A stretch of 32,380 nucleotides of DNA from the NCBI GenBank assembly GCA_902555465.1, contig CACDSN010000015.1, positions 1-32,380 on the forward strand, written 5' to 3'. The DNA comes from an uncultured Pelagibacteraceae bacterium (GTDB lineage: Bacteria > Pseudomonadota > Alphaproteobacteria > Pelagibacterales > Pelagibacteraceae). The first letter of the stretch is position 1. Every line of letters begins with the position of its first letter. This document shows positions 5,481 through 9,556 of this stretch, one piece after another. The notes beneath the pieces are model-generated. The model searched no databases, was not told where the DNA came from, and worked only from the letters and a program-made list of their open reading frames with translations. The translations under genes were made by a program, and so were the position numbers.

Positions 5481-6062
5481 TTATTTTTTAGGCTCTTTTT
5501 CTTTCTTGGGCTCAACTTTATCTTGAGGCTTGTTATTGTCTTTCTTTGCCTCTACTTTTGGAGCTTCAGTTTTTGGTTTAGTTTCTGCTCTTGCGGTTTC
5601 TGAGGATTTAGTTTCTTCTTTTTTAGGTTCTTCCACATTAGCCGCAGTAACATTTTCTTCAGCAACCTCTTGAATTTTTGTCTCTAAATCAATTCCAATT
5701 TTCTTTTTTATTTTTTCTGAAATTCTCGCGGATTTACCTGTTCTATCTCTTAAATAATAAAGTTTTGCTCTCCTTACTTTTCCAGATCTGATTACCTTAA
5801 TTGTATCAACTGCCGGGCTATAAAGTGAGAAAGTTCTTTCTACTCCCTCACCAAACGAAATTTTTCTGACTGTAAAAGAAGAATTAATATCTCTATTTTT
5901 TTTTGCTATGCAAACACCCTCAAAATACTGAATTCTGTCTCTTTTACCTTCAGTTATTTTAACTCCAACTTTAATAATATCTCCAGGAAAAAACTCTGGA
6001 TGTTTCTTTCGAGCGATAATTTCTTTTACTTTTGAATTATTTATTTCTTCTATATTTTTCAT
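5481..6062 (-). CDS. rplS: 50S ribosomal protein L19 with long charged C-terminal tail
   Basis: The first roughly 120 residues are a complete L19: the HPEFFPGD and [20 protein letters not shown] segments, [17 protein letters not shown] and [13 protein letters not shown] are all recognisable. L19 lies at the interface of the two ribosomal subunits. The protein continues for about 70 more residues with a low-complexity tail rich in Lys, Glu, Ala, Pro and Thr, whereas most L19 proteins end near residue 115-130. The tail shares the short motif APKVEAKK with the tail of S16 two genes upstream. The gene lies 4 nt downstream of trmD in the conserved rpsP-trmD-rplS order. The function of the tail is unknown; it is in frame, with no sign of frameshift. 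Confidence 0.95.
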
Positions 6063-6066
6063 TTTT

Positions 6067-6756
6067 CTAATTTTTTTTGTTATGTTTAAGCCACAAATCT
6101 GGTCTTCGGTCGCGTGTTATAGCCTCAGATTGGGATAAACGCCAGTGTTTAATTTTAGCATGATCTCCAGATAATAGTACTTCGGGAACCTTATTTTCCT
6201 GCCATATTTGAGGTTTTGTATATTGAGGATACTCCAATAAACCATTCTCAAAGCTCTCATCTGCTATAGAGTCTACATTTCCTAATACTCCTGGTATTAA
6301 TCTTAAAACACTATCTAAAACAATATAAGAGGCAGTTTCCCCTCCTGAAATTATATAATCACCAATACTAATTTCCTCAATATTTCTGTTATCAAGAACT
6401 CTTTGATCAACTCCTTCAAAATGACCACATAAAATATTTAAAAATTTTTCTTTTGAAATTTTCTTTGCAATTTCTTGATTGAGCAATTTACCTCTTGGAC
6501 TTAAGTAATATATTTTTTCGTCTTTTTTTAAATTATTATCAAATGATTTATCAATAACATCAGGTCTCATTACCATTCCAGAGCCTCCACCATAAGGAGT
6601 GTCATCAACTGTCTTGTGTTTACCTTCTGCAAAGTCTCTAATATTAACAATATTTAGATCCCAAATTTTTTTTTGTAGTGCTTTTCCGTATATTCCTTTG
6701 TCTAAAGGACCTGGAAAAAATTCAGGATATAATGTGAATATGTTGACTTTAAACAT
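6067..6756 (-). CDS. trmD: tRNA (guanine-N1-)-methyltransferase
   Basis: A 229-residue SPOUT-class methyltransferase that makes m1G37 next to the anticodon of tRNAs reading CNN and related codons, preventing frameshifting. The trefoil-knot S-adenosylmethionine site is seen in [11 protein letters not shown] and [14 protein letters not shown], the [11 protein letters not shown] loop is near residue 60, and the C-terminal tRNA-binding part has [13 protein letters not shown]. Length is normal or slightly short, as expected. Gaps of 5 nt to rpsP and 4 nt to rplS place it inside the usual rpsP-trmD-rplS operon; rimM, often present between rpsP and trmD, is not found here. Confidence 0.97.
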
Positions 6757-6761
6757 TTAAT

Positions 6762-7199
6762 TTATTCTTTTTTAGCTTCTACTTTTGGTGCATCTGCTGC
6801 TGGCTTAGCTTCTTCTTTTTTAGCTTCTACTTTTGGTGCATCTGCTGCTGGTTTTTCACCTTCAGACGACCCTTCTTTTGATGCTTCGGCTTCTTTATTT
6901 CTCTCTTTCTTAGGAATTGCTTTATTAGGATTATTACCAGACGCTGGCATAGGAATAAAGTTATTTTCACCTAAAATTCTAGCTACTCTAGTTGTTGGTT
7001 GTGCTCCTTGACTTAACCAATATTTTATTCTCTCGCTTTCTAAGCCTATTCTCTCTTTTTTCTCTTTTGGCAGTAAAGGATTAAAAAAGCCTAATTTTTC
7101 AATAAATCTACCATCTCTTGCAAACTTACTTTCTGCAACAACGATTTTGTAAACAGGTCTTTTTTTAGTTCCTCCTCTTGATAATCTAAGTTTTAACAT
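6762..7199 (-). CDS. rpsP: 30S ribosomal protein S16 with repeat-bearing C-terminal tail
   Basis: The first roughly 80 residues are a normal S16: MLKLRLSRGGTKKRPVYKIV, then DGRFIEKLGFFNPL and an IKYWLSQGAQPT segment. S16 is an early-assembly protein of the 30S subunit. A further roughly 65 residues form a Lys/Glu/Ala/Pro-rich tail absent from the shortest family members, ending in two copies of a 16-residue unit ([16 protein letters not shown]). The DNA under the two copies is nearly identical, which suggests a recent tandem duplication. The gene lies 14 nt downstream of ffh and 5 nt upstream of trmD. Confidence 0.96.
   Translation of the reverse strand: MLKLRLSRGGTKKRPVYKIVVAESKFARDGRFIEKLGFFNPLLPKEKKERIGLESERIKYWLSQGAQPTTRVARILGENNFIPMPASGNNPNKAIPKKERNKEAEASKEGSSEGEKPAADAPKVEAKKEEAKPAADAPKVEAKKE
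6765..6851. repeat. Tandem direct repeat in the 3' end of rpsP
   Basis: A 39-nt perfect direct repeat occurs at 6765-6803 and 6813-6851, offset by 48 nt, that is 16 codons in frame. It encodes the duplicated tail unit of S16. A weaker relative of the same sequence underlies the tail of rplS near 5545-5570. The in-frame period means slippage or unequal exchange here would lengthen or shorten the tail without breaking the gene. Confidence 0.9.
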
Positions 7200-7213: not shown

Positions 7214-8572
7214 TTATTTTAATTGATTAAAAAGTTCTGGCGGTATTCCTTTATCCGTCATTCCCTTCATGTCTCCTTTTGACATCTTTTTCATCATTTC
7301 AGACATCATTTTAAATTGTTTTAACAATTTATTGATAGTGGCTATATCTGTCCCAGAGCCATTAGCAATTCTTTTTTTTCTAGAGCCGTCAATAATTTTT
7401 GGATTAGCTCTTTCTTTTTTCGTCATGGATAAAATTACTGCTTCATTTTTTAAAATTATTTTTTCATCAACTCCAGCTTGGTCCATTTGAGACTTAATTT
7501 TTGAAACTCCTGGTAAAAACGACATGATACCTTCAATGCCTCCCATTTTCTTCATCTGTCTTAGTTGTGATAAATAATCTTCCAACGAAAACTGTCCTTT
7601 TTTTAAATTTTCTTCTGCTTTTTTAATATTTTCTTGGTCGACATCTTCTGACGCCTTTTCTACAAGAGATACTATATCTCCCATTCCTAATATTCTATTT
7701 GCTATACGGTCTGGATGGAAAACTTCCAGATTTTCAATTTTTTCTCCAACTCCTAAAAATTTTATCGGTACTTCTGCAACATATTTCATACTTAAAGCTG
7801 CACCACCTCTTCCATCACCATCTGATCTTGTTAAAATAATTCCTGTCAAGTTAACTGTATTTTTGAATCCTTTCGCTACATTTGCAGCAACTTGTCCTGT
7901 AAGTGAATCTGCCACTAACATTACTTCTGAAGGATTAATTATGTTCTCAATTTGCTTTATCTCACTCATCATTTGTAAATCTATTTGTGTTCTTCCTGCA
8001 GTATCAAATAAAATTACATCACTGCCATTAAGTTTAGCTGTGTTAATTGCTCTTTGGCAAATATCAGAGGGCAATTGTCCTTCAATTACTGGCAGTGTAT
8101 TGATATTATTTTGTTCTCCAAGAAGCCTCAATTGTTCCTGGGCTGCTGGTCTGTATATATCTAAACTGACCATCATAACCTTTTTTTTCTTATTTTTTTC
8201 TAGATAACTAGCGAGCTTAGCTGTTGAAGTTGTTTTTCCAGATCCTTGGAGGCCAACCATCATAACTGTAACGGGCGGTACTGCATTAAGATTAACTTCT
8301 ACATTTTTTTCTCCTAGCAAATTTACTAATTCATCATAAACAATTTTTACAACCATCTGTCCTGGAGATGTTGATCTAACTATTTCTTTTCCAAGCGCTT
8401 TTGGTTTAACTTTATCTACGAAGTCTTTAGCTACATCTAAAGAGACATCTGCTTCTAAAAAAGCTTGTCTAATTCCTCTCAAACCCTCATCTACTTGGGC
8501 TTCATTCAATGAAGGTGCCTTTTTTAAAGAAGAAAATATTTCTTCAAATTTATTTGTTAAGTTTTCAAACAT
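7214..8572 (-). CDS. ffh: Signal recognition particle protein (SRP54 homologue)
   Basis: A GTPase that binds signal sequences and 4.5S RNA and delivers ribosomes to FtsY at the membrane. The N domain is followed by the G domain with the P-loop VGLQGSGKTT, DIYRPAAQEQL, DTAGR and a G4 motif TRSDGDGRGGAAL (Arg where many bacteria have Lys, as in other alphaproteobacteria). The methionine-rich M domain has MGGIEGIMSFLPG and a C-terminal Met/Lys-rich helix. I choose ATG at 8572-8570, giving MFENLTNKFEEIF, the standard family start, and 452 residues; a TTG 12 nt further upstream is in frame but would run into the structured leader. A weak GGG at 8582-8580 lies 7 nt before the ATG. The gene heads the minus-strand operon with rpsP. 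Confidence 0.97.
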   Translation of the reverse strand: MFENLTNKFEEIFSSLKKAPSLNEAQVDEGLRGIRQAFLEADVSLDVAKDFVDKVKPKALGKEIVRSTSPGQMVVKIVYDELVNLLGEKNVEVNLNAVPPVTVMMVGLQGSGKTTSTAKLASYLEKNKKKKVMMVSLDIYRPAAQEQLRLLGEQNNINTLPVIEGQLPSDICQRAINTAKLNGSDVILFDTAGRTQIDLQMMSEIKQIENIINPSEVMLVADSLTGQVAANVAKGFKNTVNLTGIILTRSDGDGRGGAALSMKYVAEVPIKFLGVGEKIENLEVFHPDRIANRILGMGDIVSLVEKASEDVDQENIKKAEENLKKGQFSLEDYLSQLRQMKKMGGIEGIMSFLPGVSKIKSQMDQAGVDEKIILKNEAVILSMTKKERANPKIIDGSRKKRIANGSGTDIATINKLLKQFKMMSEMMKKMSKGDMKGMTDKGIPPELFNQLK

Positions 8573-8680
8573 AATTTTACCCAACAGCTATCGCACCAGT
8601 GGGCGAACCCTCGCTGACTGGTGTCGATCTCTTTGTTTTCAAAGACACCGCAAAATGCTGTATTTGCGGAAATTGCGATA
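8573..8680 (-). promoter_or_regulatory. Structured leader RNA of ffh (candidate 'ffh' cis-regulatory element)
   Basis: This stretch is visibly GC-richer than its surroundings and folds well as minus-strand RNA. Hairpin A pairs 8669-8663 with 8654-8648 (CCGCAAA/TTTGCGG). Hairpin B pairs 8649-8644 with 8625-8620 (GGTGTC/GACACC) and contains an inner CTTTG-AAAA-CAAAG stem. Hairpin C pairs 8623-8617 with 8600-8594 (CACCAGT/ACTGGTG), capped by GCGA-GGGT-TCGC. B and C both need 8623-8620, so they exclude each other. An outer 7-bp pairing of 8680-8674 with 8595-8589 is also possible. From established knowledge, a structured element before ffh was reported in Pelagibacter (Meyer et al. 2009, comparative genomics); I believe this is that element but cannot check the alignment. 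The ligand or protein sensed is unknown. Confidence 0.7.
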
Positions 8681-8681
8681 A

Positions 8682-8710
8682 ACTATAATAGAGGTTCAAA
8701 ATGTCAACAA
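8682..8710. promoter_or_regulatory. Overlapping divergent promoter-like elements for ffh and dapF
   Basis: On the minus strand, TATAGT (8687-8682) lies 17 nt downstream of TTGTTG (8710-8705), and a perfect TTGACA (8707-8702) is nearby but at poor spacing. On the plus strand, a perfect TATAAT occupies 8684-8689 in front of dapF, without a convincing -35. The two -10 elements overlap, so ffh and dapF transcription would compete for polymerase. AT-rich DNA gives many chance -10 matches, so confidence is limited. A start from the minus promoter near 8675 would leave out most of the outer stem of the ffh leader. Confidence 0.35.
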
Positions 8711-8731
8711 ATAAGATAAACATTAAAATAT

Positions 8732-9556
8732 ATGGAATTTAATGCATTTAAAATGGATGGCCTAGGAAATGATTTCATAATCATTGACCAAAGAGTGAAG
8801 GCTGTAAATTTAAGTAAAGAAAATATAATTAAAATTTGTAGTAGAGATTTTATTGGCTGTGATCAGTTAATTTATATTAACAAAAATAATGATAACAAAG
8901 ATAAACTTGTTTTTTATAATTCTGATGGAAGTATTTCTGGTGCATGCGGGAATGGTACAAGATGTGTGGCTAAACTTTTATCAAAAGAATATGGAAAAGA
9001 GGAAATAAATTTAGAGACATCGTCTGGAAATTTACATTCATTAATACTTAAAGAAAATATAGTTGAAACTAATATAGGCATACCTTCTATGGAGTGGAAT
9101 AAAATTCCTTTAATTAAAGAAATGAACACTAAAAACTTGAATATAACTATTAACGATATTAACAAAAAAAAATTTACTGGCGGTATCGCAATTAACGTCG
9201 GTAATCCCCATATAATTTTTTTTGTAGAAAATAATGATAATTATAAAATAGAAAATATAGGGCCTACAATTGAGCAGCATGAATATTTTCCAGAAAAATG
9301 CAATGTAACTATAGCTACAATCAAAAATGAAAATTTAATTAATGTTAAAGTTTGGGAGCGAGGTGCAGGATTGACAAAAGCTTGTGGGACAGCAGCATGT
9401 GCAACTGCTTATGCAGGTTTTATAACAAAAAAAGTTTCCAATAATGTTGATATAAAATTTTCTACAGGAATATTATCTATAAGAATAGGAAATGATAATT
9501 CTATTTTTATGAAAGGGCCAGTTTCAAGTATAGAGGAAATTAAAATAAAATTATAA
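8732..9556 (+). CDS. dapF: Diaminopimelate epimerase
   Basis: A 274-residue cofactor-independent epimerase converting LL- to meso-diaminopimelate for lysine and peptidoglycan synthesis. The two catalytic cysteines are Cys72 in GACGNGTRC and Cys218 in KACGTAACA, one in each half of the pseudo-symmetric fold. The N-terminal KMDGLGNDF motif is at 8-15. Length is normal. It is transcribed away from ffh, and its stop shares one base with the ftsY start (TAATG), so dapF and ftsY are coupled. In many alphaproteobacteria an mtaB-type radical SAM gene sits between them; here there is none. Confidence 0.97.
   Translation: MEFNAFKMDGLGNDFIIIDQRVKAVNLSKENIIKICSRDFIGCDQLIYINKNNDNKDKLVFYNSDGSISGACGNGTRCVAKLLSKEYGKEEINLETSSGNLHSLILKENIVETNIGIPSMEWNKIPLIKEMNTKNLNITINDINKKKFTGGIAINVGNPHIIFFVENNDNYKIENIGPTIEQHEYFPEKCNVTIATIKNENLINVKVWERGAGLTKACGTAACATAYAGFITKKVSNNVDIKFSTGILSIRIGNDNSIFMKGPVSSIEEIKIKL

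Follow-up and report, generated by a model that had tools for sequence, protein, structure and literature searches.

The ffh RNA motif, a structured leader that precedes ffh in SAR11 and other Alphaproteobacteria, stays directly before the ribosomal-protein gene rpsP in a marine alphaproteobacterial family in whose searched genomes no SRP part was found. The element could be an autoregulatory ribosomal-protein leader of the rpsP/trmD operon, with bS16, ahead of bL19, as its putative ligand; comparative analysis puts this reading at about even chances. The more extensive proposition is offered tentatively, at somewhat short of even: the motif would act as a bS16 (or bL19) autoregulatory leader across the Alphaproteobacteria, and the PS1/OCS116-like clade would have lost the whole SRP (Ffh, FtsY, and 4.5S RNA), both flanking GTPase genes being deleted and the motif kept. 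A role as sensor of SRP state hardly holds in that clade and, by parsimony, probably not elsewhere.

The stretch of DNA analyzed here, referred to as the window, comprises 32,380 nucleotides of an uncultured Pelagibacteraceae bacterium and carries the element on the minus strand between dapF and ffh (Table 1). A reading made from the letters alone (the sequence-only reading) had equated it with the published ffh motif, which is borne out: RF01793 is the sole window match above a gathering score, and the sole copy found in the genome. The GC-richer segment described there is equally real, with 50.6% GC in the 85-nt leader core (8586-8670) compared to 31.7% in the window, a content as high as that of only 0.11% of 85-nt windows. 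The leader from 8573 to 8676 folds with -35.5 kcal/mol (z -3.7) and beats 200 of 200 dinucleotide shuffles, and a cis-regulatory function of an element in this leader is plausible, as had been suggested. Downstream follow ffh, rpsP, trmD, rplS, leuC, and leuD, all of them above the cut-offs of their NCBIfam models, and the row ffh-rpsP-(rimM)-trmD-rplS presumably forms one operon; ftsY lies directly after dapF. The ffh ATG at 8572 is located 21 nt past the end of hairpin P3, and a longer TTG start at 8584 is also listed. The gap between rpsP and trmD measures 5 nt (6756-6762) and rimM is missing from it, while it is present in E. coli and in locus L111 of the PS1/OCS116-like family. The window's bS16 (6762-7199) and bL19 (5481-6062) share similar low-complexity C-terminal tails with APKVEAKK stretches. 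By eye, a TTGACA or TTGACT is seen about 30 nt upstream of hairpin P1 in SAR11 leaders; it is not among the sites listed by a consensus promoter scan.

Table 1. Features of the leader and its neighboring genes in the window (hairpin arms as paired positions; bit scores with the cut-off of the respective model)
Feature	Position	Strand	Details
RF01793 ‘ffh’ RNA motif, Rfam extent	8586..8638	-	cmscan 56.7 bits, gathering 35, E 2.1e-8
Hairpin P1 (first hairpin of the sequence-only reading)	8648..8669	-	arms 8669-8663/8654-8648
Hairpin P2	8625..8650	-	8650-8640/8635-8625, one mismatch 8646.8629; inner part UCUUUG/CAAAGA, outer part CGGU/AUCG
Hairpin P3 (hairpin C of the sequence-only reading)	8594..8623	-	outer arms 8623-8617/8600-8594; C.C mismatch 8616.8601, A.C 8615.8602, inner stem 8614-8611/8606-8603, loop 8610-8607
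Possible P3 extension AUCG/CGAU	8590..8628	-	8628-8625/8593-8590; competes with outer P2
Hairpin B of the sequence-only reading	8620..8649	-	8649-8644/8625-8620; judged not real
ffh	7214..8572	-	first gene 3' of the motif; TIGR00959 571 bits, cut-off 473.2
rpsP (bS16)	6762..7199	-	second gene; TIGR00002 98.9 bits, cut-off 45.3
trmD	6067..6756	-	TIGR00088 270.3 bits, cut-off 195
rplS (bL19)	5481..6062	-	TIGR01024 145.6 bits, cut-off 90.7
dapF	8732-9556	+	divergent from the ffh leader

Hairpin P3 is the best documented part of the structure. In alignment A1, which comprises rows from SAR11 and from 41 families of the class sample (151 loci, reduced to 121 distinct cores, thinned to 92, of which 91 were aligned), double changes occur at 11 of the 12 pairs; 94.0% of the cells are paired compared to 78.3% in shuffled alignments, and the covariation score was reached by none of 500 shuffles. 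Among 70 distinct rows found via rpsP, in an alignment that was fitted to the structure, nine of the 12 pairs show double changes. The C.C mismatch inside P3 is retained in 90 of 91 sequences, and the position beside it is A.C in 56, C-G in 14, A.A in six, G.U in five, U-A in five, G-C in two, and another combination in three of them, i.e., a standard pair in 26 of 91. The ‘bulge’ of the original description (Meyer 2009) is thus, in A1, a single C.C mismatch adjoining a position that is able to pair.

The second hairpin, P2, occupies the 5' third of the motif, a region that the Rfam model RF01793 leaves unpaired and that covaries in the window's relatives. In 56 SAR11 leaders (alignment A2), four pairs of the inner part carry double changes in 35 cells, and the outer GGU/AUC, although free of double changes, is paired in every one of the 56. 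Various other families also have P2, as CGGU...AUCG around a middle that varies freely; in several of them it comprises 11 pairs and no mismatch. Of 68 rows, 28 have a P2 that surpasses composition shuffles at p<=0.02, and with p<=0.1 the number rises to 41; the set holds about one row per genus but counts each of nine rows from SAR11 family f2. From the window sequence alone, the outer pairs have probabilities of 0.17-0.27. P1 is an additional hairpin in SAR11, where three of its seven pairs show double changes (14 cells); it was not seen by eye in the leaders of several non-SAR11 families, in which UUCC abuts GGUC. P1 and the outer part of P2 overlap at bases 8650-8648, and in the window the fold with P1 reaches -35.5 kcal/mol and that with full P2 -33.6 kcal/mol, a gap of 1.9. 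The possible extension of P3 by AUCG/CGAU has a pairing probability of 0.67-0.81 in the window; it was discarded, as it shows no covariation in SAR11. A closing helix (P0), which would join the sequence before P2 (or P1) to the stretch after P3, appears in several minimum-energy folds. Outside SAR11, with one row for each of 56 genera, native partners average -8.44 and swapped ones -7.50, a difference reached by none of 300 permutations (z -3.1), and two shifted controls are null; no signal is seen in SAR11 (n=21, z +0.5), and P0 is a lead only.

Three hairpins had been proposed for this leader, two of which, B and C, were thought to exclude each other and thereby to form a switch. The coordinates of both are correct: their arms are perfect complements and have bases 8623-8620 in common. 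Hairpin C, identical with P3, passes the covariation check among SAR11 leaders (two pairs, 31 cells with double changes in A2), and the first hairpin is substantiated as P1. Hairpin B, in contrast, is a matter of complementarity only: none of its six pairs shows a double change in the 56 leaders, the share of paired cells (90.5%) equals the shuffled value, its pairing probability is 0.0, and forcing it yields -25.3 instead of -35.5 kcal/mol, a penalty of 10.2 kcal/mol. The 5' arm of B, GGUGUC, fits the outer 5' arm of P2 opposite GAUC. Since B neither covaries nor has any probability of pairing, the pair of B and C is not a supported switch; if SAR11 leaders do switch, P1 versus outer P2 would be the better candidate.

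Searches across genomes, which represent a loose first look at a collection with some stretches possibly masked, gave RF01793 matches, with strict filters, for 147 out of 200 relatives and, in the class sample, for 112 out of 387 genomes. Of these 112 places, 80 were fetched with their flanks: in 79 of them the motif is followed by rpsP on its own strand and in 77 by ffh, which separates motif and rpsP in 76. All three loci without ffh belong to the PS1/OCS116-like family (f46); in these, rpsP comes 30-37 nt after the motif, and dapF is divergent as in SAR11. The one apparent exception to the rpsP rule (L101, G372:C222) was rejected and excluded from A1: its ffh N-terminus gives way, by eye, to recF-like sequence in antisense orientation, beside genes similar to dnaA and dnaN, and the contig is probably chimeric. 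A further set of 80 named loci, the best 80 of 421 relatives found via an f46 rpsP protein, contains the motif in 73 (model R1, E<=0.01), before ffh in 69 and directly before rpsP in four; three of the seven loci without motif end short on the upstream side. The four are ‘PS1 clade’, ‘OCS116 cluster’, and ‘Hyphomicrobiales’ AH-657-K06 records and do not count as evidence independent of f46, since the OCS116 contig and a contig of G575 agree in sequence and length. In almost all loci other than those of f46, the first gene is ffh. Of the motif-bearing loci among these best 80 of 421 that extend more than 1.5 kb past trmD, rplS was detected in 25, and 11 gave none. Hence, bS16 is the constant companion of the motif and bL19 a less constant one. 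In a phylum sample of 397 genomes, for which the share of other classes is not given, all 111 R1 matches fall into the window's own class, and the E. coli rpsP region gave no R1 match above noise, so that the motif is no general rpsP leader.

The case for a ribosomal connection is made by f46, a marine alphaproteobacterial family represented by 18 genomes (G218, G324, G405, G473, G535, and 13 more) and by loci L111, L183, L272-L285, L316, and L319. The R1 motif was found in 14 of the 18 genomes, directly before rpsP in 14 of 14; four genomes gave no motif match. The Ffh model TIGR00959, which also catches FtsY, has no match in five of five f46 genomes that are 93-97% complete, nor has PF00448, which covers both GTPases, in the same five. 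A search for SRP54-domain proteins found none in any of the 18 genomes (55-97% complete) and was positive in 14 of 14 control genomes; the lone sub-threshold match in f46 is an adenylyl-sulfate kinase. SRP RNA (RF00169) gave nothing at E<=1 in the five f46 genomes tested, and a match in each of three comparison genomes, that of G000 being below the gathering score. At the locus itself, tblastn detected nothing similar to ftsY or ffh in 26 partly overlapping f46 loci, whose sequence is contiguous (25 without N, one with 9 N). In L111 and L316 the order, in NCBIfam names, is leuB-leuD-leuC-rplS-trmD-rimM-rpsP-motif on one side and dapF-mtaB-dsbE-like on the other, the dapF side of L319 agrees, and no ftsY is present behind mtaB. 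For comparison, an SRP54-domain match lies about 2.5 kb from the motif in G191.

Judged by this gene order, the two SRP GTPase genes that would flank the motif appear to have been lost there in f46, and the motif stayed. The absence claim is based on three models together with contiguous sequence, all assemblies being incomplete. As the motif stands before rpsP where no part of the SRP was found, Ffh or the state of the SRP can hardly be its signal in f46, and retention next to a gene that remains suggests that it probably controls the ribosomal genes. Retention of the motif with the ribosomal gene after the departure of ffh was seen in f46, i.e., in one clade only. As an observation in its own right, the lack of detectable Ffh and FtsY (18 of 18 genomes) and SRP RNA (five tested) is remarkable for a presumably free-living bacterium. 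The bS16 of f46 locus L111 ends in a long Ala/Pro/Glu repeat tail.

Other genomes without SRP54-domain genes are less informative. PF00448 has a match in 372 of the 387 class-sample genomes; among the 15 without, five (f46) carry the motif and the other ten are absent from the RF01793 matches of the class sample. Full rescoring of these ten and of two weak cases, G374 and G222, gave matches over the cut-off in G374 only, and the weak SRP54 matches were rejected by eye as ParA-, Der-, and ABC-type proteins. No convincing SRP54-domain protein was thus seen in G236, G336, G483, and G544 (f64), G239, G420, and G487 (g72), G290 and G374 (f117), G468, G556, and G222. No more than about 5 kb separates ffh from ftsY in G000, G191, and G319; since a single assembly gap could remove both together, absences outside f46 were kept out of the preferred reading. 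G468 (family f38) lacks both the SRP54 genes and the motif, which is present in genus g43 of that family; a joint loss, which would speak against a ribosomal-protein leader, would fit this double absence, as would one assembly gap.

Autoregulation by a ribosomal protein encoded in the operon is the usual logic of such leaders, as exemplified by the L19 leader of Bacillus (RF00556). Like these, the window element is a structured 5' leader heading a row with ribosomal-protein genes, and all its matches fall within one class. The established leaders are bound by an operon protein and usually mimic its rRNA site; for the window element, such binding and mimicry would be predictions, and ffh is mostly the first gene. 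In the proposed mechanism, the element would act in cis as 5' leader of ffh-rpsP-(rimM)-trmD-rplS and would consist of P2 followed by P3 with the nearly invariant C.C, preceded in SAR11 by P1. Free bS16, or less likely bL19, would bind P2-P3 and lower the expression of the operon when the ribosomal protein exceeds rRNA. We infer a single operon, regulation by the leader, a ribosomal-protein ligand, bS16 as that ligand, and repression on binding. In the window, the short distance from P3 to the ffh ATG might allow a block of ribosome loading; in other lineages, early termination or altered RNA stability would be more likely outputs. In the named loci (best 80 of 421), 5 to 437 nt separate the motif from the ffh start, so that the output step probably differs between lineages and does not follow one fixed mechanism. 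UUUU occurs within 13 nt after P3 in 31 of 70 non-SAR11 rows and in none of 21 SAR11 rows, and a UUG a little past the U-rich stretch in 56 of 70 and five of 21, respectively; given this variable spacing and the frequent U-rich stretch, an output by termination or RNA stability is likelier outside the window type of leader. In most rows of the non-SAR11 loci L062-L141, a conserved UUG and a U-rich stretch are seen about 8-13 nt after P3.

Resemblance of the RNA to the protein's site on rRNA is usual, but not universal, for ribosomal-protein leaders, and no convincing rRNA mimic of the motif was found in three rRNA operons. R1 with filters off returned noise only from the rRNA operons of E. coli, Marivivens, and Phyllobacterium (the two alphaproteobacterial ones taken from plasmid records), and a script scan for hairpins with a C.C mismatch listed 8, 7, and 8 places in the three. 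One of these, in the 530-loop region of 16S rRNA, is common to both alphaproteobacteria and missing in E. coli; it was rejected, since it is presumably not a native helix and its strands, as we take it, pair otherwise in the ribosome. A mimic that exists in three dimensions only would be missed by such scans.

The sequence-only reading had proposed that the leader responds to SRP state: free Ffh or 4.5S RNA would bind it and gate ffh translation through the B and C folds. The position of ffh accords with this, as it is the first gene in 77 of 80 class-wide loci and in 69 of the 73 motif-bearing loci among the best 80 of 421, and genes for RNA-binding proteins often carry such leaders, according to the available excerpt of Meyer (2009; PMC2704228). 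The ten SRP54-less genomes that also lack a motif match in the class sample point the same way; relatives of one of them, G468, do have the motif. Against this stands f46, in which 14 genomes out of 18 carry the motif before rpsP although no SRP54-domain protein was found in the 18 and no SRP RNA in the five tested, together with the failure of B, one of the two folds on which the gating would depend. Nor does the structure of P3 match the known Ffh site. Domain IV of 4.5S RNA has a stem with an internal loop and, like the motif, UCAG on one strand; unlike it, the motif has a C.C one-by-one mismatch beside A.C or a standard pair, no GGAA tetraloop, and is present where no SRP components were found. 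A sensor of the SRP is accordingly considered very improbable. That the motif does not look like the portion of 4.5S RNA to which Ffh binds is also stated in the excerpt of Meyer 2009 (PMC2704228).

A rather unlikely, though more serious, alternative dispenses with a ligand: the hairpins might serve in protection or processing of the long operon mRNA at its 5' end, or P3 and its U-rich tail could be a fixed attenuator that also yields a short stable RNA. The UUUU behind P3 in 31 of 70 rows outside SAR11 and the variable distance to the start codon would suit such a function, as would the short leader RNAs reported or predicted in excerpts on Sinorhizobium (sm5), Bartonella (ffH leader), and metatranscriptomes. 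However, the C.C, kept in 90 of 91 sequences, goes beyond the needs of a terminator or protective stem, and SAR11 lacks the UUUU after P3 altogether (0 of 21 rows). Finally, a leader of the ribosomal-protein type might have as its ligand RimM, TrmD, or a ribosome-biogenesis factor encoded elsewhere. This shares with a bS16 leader all evidence from operon position, and RimM acts in 30S assembly, but the window has no rimM between rpsP and trmD, so that there the operon itself could not supply RimM as a ligand; a ligand of this third kind is judged improbable. Autoregulation by bS16, or else bL19, remains the preferred reading.

The motif was originally described as one hairpin with a bulge, a covarying stem, and two conserved C residues, located before ffh in Pelagibacter, Rhodobacterales, Sphingomonadales, and Rhizobiales, and its function was left open in the excerpt available, which also cites metatranscriptome evidence of short leader RNAs (Meyer 2009, BMC Genomics 10:268, PMC2704228). 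RF01793 represents the same RNA in the same place (between dapF and ffh) and in the same lineage as the window element; the original description links the motif with ffh, whereas its link with rpsP comes from the f46 genomes. In excerpts of two reports (PMC2573895/PMC7717549), sm5 from the dapF-ffh intergenic region of Sinorhizobium is a predicted RNA of about 120 nt with array signals and the Northern entry ‘not done’, and an ffH leader RNA is listed in Bartonella RNA-seq. Laboratory E. coli is viable without SRP, given suppressors, as noted in an excerpt of PMC8299109. A word search of the open-access literature found no paper that assigns the motif to rpsP and no report of SRP loss in the PS1 clade.

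Since 2009, the motif has been regarded as a probable regulator of ffh without an identified signal, as far as the excerpt of PMC2704228 goes. Its reassignment to the ribosomal operon poses a concrete question, namely whether bS16 or bL19 binds the motif. A 2024 review states, in the portion available, that there is no information on the regulation of the trmD operon, which is rare among ribosomal-protein operons (PMC10931766); if the proposed reading is true, the motif would be the first regulator known for the trmD/rpsP operon and would fill this gap. As the SRP is described, in the excerpt of PMC8230904, as present in all domains of life, a clade without it would also be of interest in itself.
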